Both the position numbers and the translations under genes were made by a program. 64,000 nucleotides of DNA, from the NCBI RefSeq assembly GCF_000482845.1, contig NZ_AXWV01000001.1, forward strand, positions 62,001 through 126,000, given 5' to 3'. The notes beneath the pieces are model-generated. The model saw nothing but the letters and a program-made list of their open reading frames with translations, did no database searches and had not been told where the DNA came from. Below are positions 11,866 through 58,612 of this stretch, piece by piece. This stretch comes from Anaerobiospirillum succiniciproducens DSM 6400. Its GTDB lineage: Bacteria > Pseudomonadota > Gammaproteobacteria > Enterobacterales > Succinivibrionaceae. Position 1 is the first letter of the stretch; each line of letters opens with the position of its first letter.

Positions 11866-12040
11866 AAATCCAAATCCAAGTAGCAAGCATCAAGCTACCC
11901 ATAAAGCAAGTACCAGGCTAGCCATAAAGCAAGCGCAAGCAGTACCTTAAGCTAGTGTAAGTGCGCCTCTTAGGCCCTTAGCCAGGCTACGCTCCTTTGC
12001 AATTGGCGATGCTATGCCTGCGATTCAGGCAAAGAATATT

Positions 12041-12102
12041 AAAAGCGATCAGAGGCTAAGACTATGGATTGCATGATCCTAGTACAAGCGCTGATCGCTT
12101 TT
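12041..12102 (+). terminator. Terminator downstream of argD
   Basis: AAAAGCGATCAG (12041-12052) is perfectly complementary to CTGATCGCTTTT (12091-12102), with TTGTTGTTTT after it. The loop of 38 nt is long. A small hairpin GCCTG/CAGGC lies just before it at 12016-12030. Confidence 0.7.
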
Positions 12103-12543
12103 GTTGTTTTGGGGCACGATGCAGTGCCTCTGATCTCGCTTGTAGTAGCTGCAGGTGTGTGCGGGCGCTCTTGCGTTTATGCCTCGTGTTTAGATAATGG
12201 TATGAGAGCGTGATCGCTGAGAGCATTATGTCTTAAGAAGTCGGTGGCATATCGGTACGCTTATGATGCTTATGTGATGCTTAAGCGATGCATATTTACG
12301 TGGCGTGGGATCAGAACGTTTGCACGGAAAGATGCTGCTTATTGGGATCGCGGGGCGGCTCTGAGCGGCTTAGGCTTGTGGAGATTACGTAGGATCATGG
12401 GGTATATGTGGTGTTGGCAGGATCGTAAGGACTGATCCTGGTATGGTTAGGATCATGGGGACTGATCCTAGGCGTTAATTAGCTGAAGTTCACAAAAATT
12501 TTGCGTCGATGGTATGTGCATTTCCTGTGATCGGTTATCTTTT

Positions 12544-12551
12544 GCTATAAT
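12544..12551 (+). promoter_or_regulatory. Extended -10 promoter for the candidate sRNA
   Basis: TTTGCTATAAT gives a consensus TGn extension followed by TATAAT (12546-12551). The expected start is near 12558. A 13-bp palindrome, AGATCAGTGATCT (12561-12573), lies just after that point and could be an operator. Confidence 0.6.
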
Positions 12552-12557
12552 CAGCCC

Positions 12558-12716
12558 ATGAGATCAGTGATCTTGATGATCTTTAAGCTGTTTTTGAAGA
12601 TCAGATCTTTGATCTTGAATACGTAAAAACCGCTTGTATATGCGGTTAAGATGTTATCAGTGCAACGATAACGACTTTGGCTAAGCCATATATGGATCTT
12701 AGCGATCCTGGCTTTT
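12558..12716 (+). ncRNA. Candidate small RNA, about 160 nt, GATC-rich
   Basis: Between an extended -10 promoter and a terminator I can pair four stems. AAGATCA/TGATCTT is at 12597-12616, AACCGC/GCGGTT at 12628-12647 and GTTATC/GATAAC at 12653-12672. The terminator stem AAGCCA..GGATC/GATCC.TGGCTT spans 12683-12714 and has a 5-nt bulge; the TTTT at 12713-12716 follows. No open frame with a ribosome binding site is present. It could instead be an untranslated segment upstream of dgkA, whose start lies about 245 bp beyond the terminator. Confidence 0.55.
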
Positions 12717-12960
12717 GTATATAGCGCTTAGATTTAGCTATTTTAGATGGTGTGAGTGATGATCGCGCCTTAATTTTAGGTATCTAAGGTGCTGTATATA
12801 CATGAGTATGCACTCAGTTTGTATTTAAACTTTGCTGCCTTGAATAGCCTTTGTGCGCTATTTAAATGACAATTTACTCTTGCTTGAAGTTGTAAGACTA
12901 ACTTTAGTTTTCGTGTGCCTGATGCAATATTGATTTTCGATTGATACAGGATTACATCAA

Positions 12961-26754: not shown

Positions 26755-26828
26755 TGGAGGCGACTTCCGGAGTCGAACCGGACTACACGAATTTGCAATC
26801 CGCTGCATAACCGCTTTGCTAAGTCGCC
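26755..26828 (-). tRNA. tRNA-Cys(GCA), copy 1
   Basis: 74 nt on the minus strand, with a GGCGACT/AGTCGCC acceptor stem, anticodon GCA in the loop TTGCAAA, TTCGACT in the T arm, and an encoded CCA end. It is identical to the copy at 26856-26929 and lies second in the transcript. Confidence 0.95.
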
Positions 26829-26855: not shown

Positions 26856-26929
26856 TGGAGGCGACTTCCGGAGTCGAACCGGACTACACGAATTTGCAAT
26901 CCGCTGCATAACCGCTTTGCTAAGTCGCC
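26856..26929 (-). tRNA. tRNA-Cys(GCA), copy 2
   Basis: 74 nt on the minus strand, identical to the first copy, with an encoded CCA end. It is the promoter-proximal copy; 27 bp separate the two. Confidence 0.95.
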
Positions 26930-45713: not shown

Positions 45714-45859
45714 AGACCCTCACAAAAACTAAGATGCATAAGCAAATTAGTTACGTACCAGCTTTAACGCGACCGTAGTCGCCACTTAGGCAATTTTGCG
45801 TTGATGCTTAAGCACAACTAAGCTCGCGTTAAACCTGCAAAAAACAGCTAATTTTAATG

Positions 45860-45884
45860 AAAAGCCTGATGCTATAAGGCTTTT
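45860..45884. terminator. Hairpin between tctC and tctB (proximal to tctB)
   Basis: AAAAGCCT (45860-45867) pairs with AGGCTTTT (45877-45884). The A and T flanks would let it act in either direction. A 12-bp palindrome GTGCACGTGCAC follows at 45885-45896. Confidence 0.7.
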
Positions 45885-45913
45885 GTGCACGTGCACGGGG
45901 CTTTATTTTGGGT

Positions 45914-45958
45914 AAAAAAAGGGCACGGCATACTCAAGAAAGTATTGGGCCGTGCCCT
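45914..45958 (-). terminator. Strong terminator directly after tctC
   Basis: On the minus strand GGGCACGGC (45957-45949) pairs with GCCGTGCCC (45929-45921) and is followed by seven T (45920-45914). It should sharply reduce readthrough from tctC into tctB-tctA. Confidence 0.9.
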
Positions 45959-46022
45959 CTGAGTGTGTGTGATAGGATTATTGACAGTCTTTAGAGACTG
46001 TTATGTCTTGGAAAGCTTATGG

Positions 46023-56119: not shown

Positions 56120-56141
56120 TGAAGAGGGGAGTTCCCTTAGC

Positions 56142-56640
56142 TTGATCTTTTGCCATGATCTTGGTGATCCAATCTCAAGGGACCTGACTTATGCTCGTTC
56201 TTAAAAGCTCTAATCTAAATGCCCGGGGGTGTGAATTGGTTGAGCTGTGATCTTAACTAGCCAATCTAAAAGCTCTGATCTCAATGATCTAGTCTGAAAG
56301 CTATGATCTTGATGGCATGATCTTGTTACATACGCTTGCAGCGATCTTGATCGAATAACTTGAGATCTAGCTCACCTTGTGATCTTTGAGGGCGGTGATC
56401 TTATTTCTTTTGCCATGAGGCGGCAACAGCGGCAAGGTGGTGGCAAGGTAAATTATGGGGCGGCAAAGATTGCAAAGAGGCTTTTTTATCTACGTTTTGT
56501 TGGTGCTAGCGCTGATAGGCTATGGCTTTGAGGCGATCATAAAGGATGGCAAGGGCGCTTATGCGGCGCTGTGATCTTTAGGTATTTTAGTTGTTTAGCG
56601 GCAAAGAATGCCGTTAAAGACGCGTGATCTTATGATCTTG
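56142..56640. repeat. GATC-dense island downstream of the methyltransferase gene
   Basis: Seventeen GATC sites lie in about 500 bp, ten of them in the larger context TGATCTT. The phrase CTTTTGCCATGA occurs near 56149 and again near 56406. No gene is supported in 56120-56771. A comparable density, 22 sites in 720 bp, occurs at 12040-12760. Confidence 0.75.
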
Positions 56641-56703
56641 GTATGTGATGGCAAAGGGCATAAATATCAGCTTTGCACAAAAAGATTAAGTTGTTTTGTA
56701 AAT

Positions 56704-56754
56704 GGCACGTCATGTGCAAAACCTAGAGTACTTCTGCTTCCCTCAGAAGTATTT
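56704..56754 (+). other. Two hairpins upstream of the 147-residue gene
   Basis: GCAC/GTGC pairs at about 56705-56717, and TACTTCTG/CAGAAGTA (56729-56736 with 56744-56751) is followed by TTT. They lie directly before the ribosome binding site and could form a 5' UTR or terminate an upstream transcript. Confidence 0.5.
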
Positions 56755-56771
56755 AAAATTAGGAGACAACT

Positions 56772-57215
56772 ATGTCAAGCGCCCTTATCAATGCGGTTGG
56801 CTCACCAAATGTCAGGGAAAATTGGTGGGACAAGAGTAATAAGATTGATGGGTTTGCACAATCACCAATCTCCGAGGTGTTCGGTACCGAGGCAAGCAGT
56901 GGAACTTCTTTCTCTGCTAGTCTTGAGAACATCTTAGCCCGTGCTGAGGATATTTCTGCTGCCGACGGTATGAATATCAGTCGTGCTGCACCAACCACAG
57001 TAACTGGTGAGGCTGTAACCTTTGAAGAACTTATCAACTCAGAAAATGCGCAGATAAGAGAATTTGCAGTCTTAGATCAGCAACCGCTGTCACCAGATTG
57101 GTCTGTCTTAAAAGCTCAGAATCCAGTAACTCCGAGCAACTTTAAGGCACTCAATGGTTTATCAGATGGCTTAATGCTATCGCAGCGCTTTGCTAATGCT
57201 TTGTACGCCGTTTAG
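56772..57215 (+). CDS. 147-residue protein of unknown function
   Basis: I recognise no family. AGGAGA lies 5-6 nt before the ATG, so it is a well-formed gene. The protein is soluble, with no signal peptide or membrane helix. The first 30 residues (SSALINAVGSPNVRENWWDKSNKIDG) and a central Ala/Ser/Thr-rich region look flexible, and the last 25 residues (FKALNGLSDGLMLSQRFANALYAV) could form an amphipathic helix. Its 3' neighbour is a dense structured-RNA region that begins within 15 bp of the stop. The pair lies between the GATC island and the nitroreductase gene. Confidence 0.6.
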   Translation: MSSALINAVGSPNVRENWWDKSNKIDGFAQSPISEVFGTEASSGTSFSASLENILARAEDISAADGMNISRAAPTTVTGEAVTFEELINSENAQIREFAVLDQQPLSPDWSVLKAQNPVTPSNFKALNGLSDGLMLSQRFANALYAV

Positions 57216-57389
57216 CGAATGAAGTAGCTTAATAAGCTATGCCATTTGCTTGTATAAAGTAAAGATGGCAATGCTTTTACGCTGATCGGGCAAATATTCT
57301 CTTTGACGGCATTTACATGCTGTAAAGAGTGTTCATAGTTTTCTACTGCAGGCAAATATACAGACACTAAAGATCTATCTATCTTACGA

Positions 57390-57417
57390 TTGAGAAGGTC
57401 TTTGGGGTTTATATAAG
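57390..57417 (+). promoter_or_regulatory. Promoter-like sequence inside the structured-RNA region
   Basis: TTGAGA (57390-57395) and TATAAG (57412-57417) are separated by 16 bp. It would start an RNA of about 420 nt ending at the terminator at 57791-57841. Confidence 0.45.
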
Positions 57418-57790
57418 TTGCCAACAGAATCGACTTTATCTGACAGAAAATGGCAGTGAAAGCTGTCCCTGGGCAATTGCTGTCAGACTAAGGTGCCTTG
57501 TGGCACTTTAGCTGTCGAATAAAGCCATTAAACTATGCACGCAGCAAATGCTCTTACTGCGCATGGTGTCTTTTGGCACTTTGCGCAGCAAGAACTTTGC
57601 ACTCCAAAGCGCTGCTTTTGTGCCTGCATTTAGCAATGCTCAAAAGCAGTAGCCTTGCTTTCGTGTATGTTTTGATTCTGCGAGATCTTTGAAGCTAAAG
57701 ATCCTTGCCAAGCCATTTTAGGCAAGCCTTGCAACATCTTGTTACACATGCAATGAGATGTTTTGGCAAGGCTCTTAAGCTTACTCAATA

Positions 57791-57841
57791 CCCCACCAAA
57801 AAGGTTGCTTAGCAGCCTTTGCCGTGGGGTTTTGTATTTTT
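57791..57841 (+). terminator. Bipartite intrinsic terminator of the structured RNA
   Basis: CCCCAC (57791-57796) pairs with GTGGGG (57824-57829). Inside, AAAGGTTGC pairs with GCAGCCTTT (57800-57820), one G.U. TTTTGTATTTTT follows. Confidence 0.9.
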
Positions 57842-58060
57842 ATCCCACCACTTTTTCACGCAAGCCACATCACGCAAGCCAGATCCCACTGCCACGAGCC
57901 GGCCAAGACCGCAAACACAACGAGCCAGCTACGCAAGCTCCAACCAGACCAATCAATTCAAAACTCGTTAAATTCCCGCAAAATTGAACAAACTCGACTA
58001 AAATCGGTCAAAAAGTCGCTAAAACACGTCCAAAACGACCAAACAACTGCACATCACAAT
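57842..58060. other. C-rich, G-poor stretch after the structured-RNA terminator
   Basis: The plus strand is strongly C over G (for example 57842-57960), with repeated ACGCAAGCCA and AACGACCAAA-type text. No gene is supported. It could act as a Rho-utilisation region backing up the intrinsic terminator. Confidence 0.5.
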
Positions 58061-58371: not shown

Positions 58372-58458
58372 CACAGCACAGCACAGCACAGCACAGCACA
58401 GCACAGCAAAGCTGGACACTAAACTGCACTGCACTGCACTGCACTGCTCTGCACTGTC
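58372..58458. repeat. Two adjacent pentanucleotide microsatellites
   Basis: CACAG is repeated seven times without interruption at 58372-58406. After a 17-bp gap, CTGCA-type pentamers run from 58424 to 58458 (four perfect, then variants). Small open frames cross them on both strands but have no ribosome binding site. Confidence 0.92.
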
Positions 58459-58612
58459 TTGCATGCAGTGCATGCTGTAGTCCGTCTGGAGATGGAGAGT
58501 TTTGCTCTAGCCCATGCACTCTAGTGCTTAATGACGGTTCAGGGCTGCTTCTATAGATGGTTTATGCGGCGAGCTCAAGGGCGTGAGGGAGCTTGTATGA
58601 GGCTCCTCATTA

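Follow-up and report, generated by a model that had tools for sequence, protein, structure and literature searches.

The window, that is, the whole stretch of 64,000 nucleotides of Anaerobiospirillum succiniciproducens DSM 6400 that was analysed, carries a gene for an orphan protein of 147 residues, and directly behind it lies a strongly folded interval that runs up to a terminator (Table 1). Upstream of this locus, the gap 3' of a cytosine methyltransferase gene (56120-56600) contains many repeated GATCTT words. Downstream, nitroreductase is the next gene in most species of the genus with flank sequence, and the gap ahead of it (58375-58470) contains CAGCA and CTGCA as short units arranged in runs.

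Table 1. Features of the locus, in window coordinates.
Feature	Position	Strand	Remarks
Sigma-54 (-24/-12) promoter TGGCACGTCATGTGC of the 147-residue gene	56703-56717	+	conserved element
Ribosome-binding site and start codon AGGAGACAACTATG	56761-56774	+	AACTATG (56768-56774) complementary to CATAGTT of the 3' region
147-residue orphan protein gene	56772-57215	+	genus-wide, weakly conserved in the family
Large structured RNA region, proposed 3' UTR	57216-57841	+	fold z -10.7, outlier among gaps, Rfam empty
5' domain, species-variable	57226-57296	+	folds locally, no alignable counterpart in NML120448 and NML120449
Hairpin PA	57299-57329	+	CTCTTT:AAAGAG in the window and NML120448, CTTGT:ACAAG in NML120449
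Conserved word CATAGTTT, 5' strand of helix PK, candidate anti-start	57334-57341	+	core of seven letters shared by all three species
Hairpin at the insertion point	57351-57422	+	60-70 nt in the window and NML120448, ~720 nt in NML120449
Three-way junction	57434-57524	+	stem 57434-57446/57512-57524, hairpins 57451-57485 and 57488-57511
AAACTATG, 3' strand of helix PK, putative mimic of the gene start	57530-57537	+	pairs with 57334-57341
Hairpin PD, GCTCTTACTGCGCA..TGCGCAGCAAGAAC	57550-57595	+	invariant stem in the three species, covarying tip
Hairpin PE, CTGCTTTTG..CAAAAGCAG	57612-57649	+	conserved hairpin
Stem PF	57692-57711 with 57763-57782	+	52/60 cells paired, slid controls 15-26
Bipartite intrinsic terminator, then TTTTGTATTTTT	57786-57841	+	-27.2 kcal/mol, z -5.5

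The upstream gene and its promoter

The 147-residue gene is present in all Anaerobiospirillum genomes (10/10), and weak homologues occur in other genera of the Succinivibrionaceae. In one relative from another genus (L016), two tandem paralogues of the family are followed by what appear to be ybaB and recR. Searches of Pfam, NCBIfam and the PDB gave no match for the protein, and its AlphaFold model is poor (pLDDT 52). A possible likeness to a type III secretion rod, read from the C-terminus, is backed neither by these databases nor by the model. In the C-terminus (57060-57212), a short motif [FW].[VA]L...P appears to be repeated three times (EFAVLDQQPLSPD, WSVLKAQNPVTPSN and FKALNGLSDGL); the repeats are seen in the homologues too.

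Upstream of the gene, all 16 homologues carry the pattern GGCAYN6TGC 64-98 nt 5' of their start codon, and shuffled sequences would yield 0.15 occurrences in total. This corresponds to the GG-N10-GC -24/-12 element of sigma-54 (RpoN) promoters, and its conservation is that expected of a sigma-54-dependent gene. Furthermore, the gene for sigma-54 itself is present in the genome.

Folding, conservation and architecture of the interval

The initial annotation described 57226-57841 as a stretch without a supportable gene but with many stems, and both descriptions hold. On the + strand the 616-nt interval reaches a minimum free energy of -238.5 kcal/mol, whereas dinucleotide shuffles average -170.2 (sd 6.4), which corresponds to a z of -10.7; the reverse strand gives a z of -10.0. 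Since the genome has many long, repeat-rich gaps, all gaps of the window and a sample of coding stretches were folded as 300-nt pieces to serve as background. Here, most other gaps lie between z +2 and -4, and the four pieces over 57216-57965 stand out as outliers on either strand (z -3.9 to -5.8 on +, -2.9 to -8.0 on -), with a signal that ceases at the terminator. The sole comparable gap of the window is the 309 nt between two minus-strand genes at 45714-46022 (z -5.4 on +, -7.2 on -); a long gap at 11866-12960 goes down to z -5.1 on the minus strand.

Homologous gaps were found in Anaerobiospirillum NML120448 (G005) and NML120449 (G006), giving three distinct sequences in all. Both gaps are strongly folded as well, with z down to -9.4 and -7.0, respectively, and their DNA similarity to the window is restricted to short blocks. 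The core alignment was made with MAFFT from the sequences alone (A1, A2). Applied to it, RNAalifold returned 61 pairs, 13 of which are doubly changed in some sequence. Within the 47-pair structure, 11 pairs are doubly changed versus 5.0 (sd 1.6) in shuffles and 0-2 with slid partners, and 89% of the cells pair compared with 34-48% after sliding. Column shuffles keeping the conservation pattern gave z values of -7.8 (+) and -10.4 (-), and the two most distant species pairs reached -7.8 and -3.2 on the + strand. Stem PF was aligned manually on the basis of conserved words and contributes 4 further doubly changed pairs versus 0-1 after sliding. Compensatory changes that preserve helices, as expected of a new family, are present in three distinct sequences. 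The lack of a homologous interval, or stems that do not covary, had been named beforehand as arguments against an RNA; both were looked for, and the relatives possess the interval and its stems covary. A conserved structure as such is very probable.

A protein-coding gene inside the interval was rejected, as frames are not conserved between the species: frameshifts occur at the beginning and in the tips of hairpins, and the open reading frame after AACTATG extends over 32, 29 and 11 codons with unlike peptides (judged by eye for NML120449).

In the three species, the stop codon is followed by the variable 5' domain, PA, CATAGTT, the expandable hairpin, the three-way junction, AACTATG, PD, PE and PF, and in the window the terminator closes this architecture; an obvious terminator at the RNA end was looked for in NML120448 and NML120449 and none was found. 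Several elements of the initial annotation recur in the two other species, namely the hairpins 57488-57511, 57550-57595 and 57612-57649 and the three-way junction, whose helices contain 4, 4 and 2 doubly changed pairs. The loop text GGTG.C.TT.TGGCACTTT, reported for two hairpins, is indeed common to both in the window, but the corresponding tips in NML120448 and NML120449 are unrelated. It had also been proposed that CTTGCC can choose its partner, and this is the case: the pairing kept across species joins CCTTGCCAA (57703-57711) to TTGGCAAGG (57763-57771) within stem PF, and in the window it is 2.3 kcal/mol costlier than the 8+7 hairpin described earlier. Likewise, AACTATG can alternatively pair 3' with CGTGTATGTT (57662-57671) in the window. 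Imposing all conserved helices carries no energetic penalty in NML120448, where the architecture is the minimum-energy fold; in the window the penalty is at most 5 out of 241 kcal/mol, and in NML120449 it is about 11 out of 519. In the latter (L018, 660-1400), a domain of about 720 nt is inserted at one hairpin of the RNA and is itself strongly folded. A further helix beside PD, termed PD0, occurs in each species at positions that are not homologous and is not claimed.

At gathering level, Rfam reports two tRNAs in the window and nothing else; these tRNA genes (26758-26828 and 26859-26929, minus strand) have equal scores and are probably a tandem copy. With the threshold relaxed to E 10, only chance-level matches were obtained for the three homologues, and none of the covariance models of ROOL, GOLLD, OLE, HEARO, RNase P, tmRNA and 6S matched. 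A known RNA family was rejected on these grounds, and the label "undescribed" given to the interval at the outset is upheld. On the level of the sequences compared, a shape kept in three species while its letters changed marks the interval as an apparently new, uncatalogued RNA.

Transcript, strand and distribution

The bipartite terminator proposed in the initial annotation is real (Table 1). It is the first convincing one 3' of the stop codon of the 147-residue gene; a + strand scan reported no terminator-like site between this stop codon and 57786. Because the sigma-54 promoter lies at one end and this terminator at the other, the transcript would be about 1.1 kb long with a structured 3' end of 620 nt. 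The promoter-like TTGAGA/TATAAG at 57390 did not survive: it sits inside a hairpin of the conserved fold (57351-57422), is not kept in the relatives and was not reported by a consensus promoter scan, in which promoter-like sites were no commoner than in shuffles. The original proposal of an RNA gene is thereby divided. A large uncatalogued structured RNA beside the 147-residue gene stands, on account of the covariation and the empty Rfam search, whereas a free-standing gene of 420 nt is unsupported because its promoter would lie within the conserved fold. Transcription together with the upstream gene is the better fit.

We consider that the interval is a large structured 3' UTR of a sigma-54-driven mRNA, perhaps processed, with a probability of roughly 0.6. 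The RNA would either stay attached to the mRNA or be cut from it.

A stand-alone or processed non-coding RNA, acting in trans or as a scaffold in the manner of the large ornate RNAs, with the gene as a mere neighbour or transcript source, appears rather unlikely. Size and complexity, the terminator with its T-rich tail and the 720-nt domain inserted at one hairpin of NML120449 with retention of the core, as in modular RNAs, would suit such an RNA. Nevertheless, no conserved promoter was found between the stop codon and the fold in the three species, no more than about 10 nt separate the stop codon from the first structured element, and the known large RNAs do not match.

The strand cannot be told from folding alone. 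The core-alignment consensus energy and the column-shuffle z favour the - strand, on which the invariant A.C mismatch of hairpin PD becomes a G.U pair and helix PK reaches a probability of 0.88-0.97 in three species, its prediction being firmer there than on + in the window and NML120449. This would be in line with an antisense RNA, or with hairpins acting as DNA (cruciform or single-strand sites). Against this, G.U pairs outnumber A.C mismatches on the + strand by 28 to 13, hairpin PCb has a G.U pair on + in all three species, and the element lies directly behind a co-directional gene. Since this gene has a conserved promoter, the terminator is on the + strand and none of the three species shows a promoter-like site on the - strand beyond the right-hand end of the structure, + is the better reading and would be the functional strand; a functional - strand or a role as DNA is quite unlikely.

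The distribution of the RNA is narrow. The core covariance model, searched against 57 genomes from the family and 395 from the order, matches three species only, and a pattern scan of 85,000 species returned NML120448, NML120449 and one Burkholderiales match with unrelated-looking flanks. The gene is retained in seven further species of the genus that lack the large structure, and their gaps show little or no excess structure. In a fourth species (G004), the covariance model detects a reduced form at the corresponding site (E 0.0086 in 127 kb): the PD hairpin alone, no more than 180 nt from the gene stop and followed by CCTTTTCTC. Because of this directly adjoining sequence, the hairpin may be a plain terminator of the gene there. 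The history would likely be that of a large domain grown around an older 3' hairpin. A REP-like repeat was rejected, as the CTGCGCA/TGCGCAG motif of PD occurs once in the genome of the window and once in that of G004, both at this locus. Likewise, a repeat or mobile element was rejected, as the interval is single-copy in the genome and plasmids, phages and viral contigs gave no match.

That functionless hairpins simply accumulated in a loosely constrained 3' gap is very unlikely: the restriction to three close species, the other structured gap at 45714-46022 and the species that manage without the structure are compatible with it, but the covariation and the invariant loops and joining words (AAATGCTCTTACTGCGCA, CCCTG, CATAGTT) in an otherwise unalignable gap speak against it.

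Relation to known RNAs and a possible mechanism

Few large bacterial RNAs have elaborate conserved folds, and the majority of these were discovered as free-standing RNAs in Gram-positives, phages or metagenomes. The likening of the interval to ROOL, GOLLD and OLE in the initial annotation is apt for size and complexity but not for sequence or structure, in which it matches none of them. These RNAs also span several hundred nucleotides with many junctions and stems, variable peripheral domains and an unknown function (PMC12286853); in contrast, the RNA described here is found in three species of one genus and is tied to one chromosomal gene. A literature search pairing Anaerobiospirillum or Succinivibrio with structured RNA, whose scope did not include the microbiome candidate lists of PMC8040213, found none.

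For the 3' UTR reading, closer counterparts exist. The 3' UTR of icaR from Staphylococcus aureus is autoregulatory and uses UCCCCUG against the Shine-Dalgarno sequence (PMC3868564). Here as well, a long 3' UTR would carry a short word complementary to the translation start region of its own message. In contrast to icaR, the candidate word would target the start codon, and a matching decoy is placed inside a large covarying fold. OppZ and CarZ of Vibrio cholerae, also a gammaproteobacterium, are autoregulatory small RNAs that derive from 3' UTRs and pair with their own message (PMC7398697). The element of Anaerobiospirillum would likewise come from a transcript end, but at about 620 to 1310 nt it greatly exceeds them in size and in degree of structure. 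By analogy with these systems, translation might be autoregulated through the 3' UTR, a proposal that we regard as tentative.

In such a mechanism, RNA polymerase would start just downstream of the -24/-12 promoter, the 147 codons would be translated and transcription would continue to the terminator. The 3' region would form a hub, in which helix PK encloses the expandable hairpin and the three-way junction, with two tall hairpins and then the terminal stem beyond it. Two alternative partners would be open to CATAGTT, the AACTATG mimic within the fold and the AACTATG at the start of the gene itself, and the state of the fold would set the translation of the 147-residue gene. With the fold intact, CATAGTT would be held by the internal AACTATG; once the fold is opened, it would mask the real start. 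This toggle by start-codon mimicry, with the large folded domain as sensor, is quite doubtful.

AACTATG is the only seven-letter word that occurs in every one of the three starts as well as in all three 3' regions, where it is identical and has its complement, and the chance of such a coincidence from a shuffled start is about 0.11. All three RNA-bearing species, and no others, have AACTATG at the start; species lacking the RNA have other letters before the ATG. The core of helix PK never varies while its neighbours do, which would be expected if the start codon fixes the core. The complementarity of CATAGTT to the start region is found in three species and in NML120448 reaches into the ribosome-binding site. 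In two of the three, the window and NML120449, the duplex energy is unexceptional, the best duplex of the 3' region with the start region being no better than in shuffles.

If the start-mimic pairing is real, the 3' end of a message would control the translation of its own gene through a large fold. The RNA accompanies a gene under sigma-54 control in a gut gammaproteobacterium that can be cultivated, and it occurs in only one clade of the genus. With a domain of about 720 nt gained in one species and a simple hairpin present elsewhere, this locus may allow a large RNA to be watched while it is being built.
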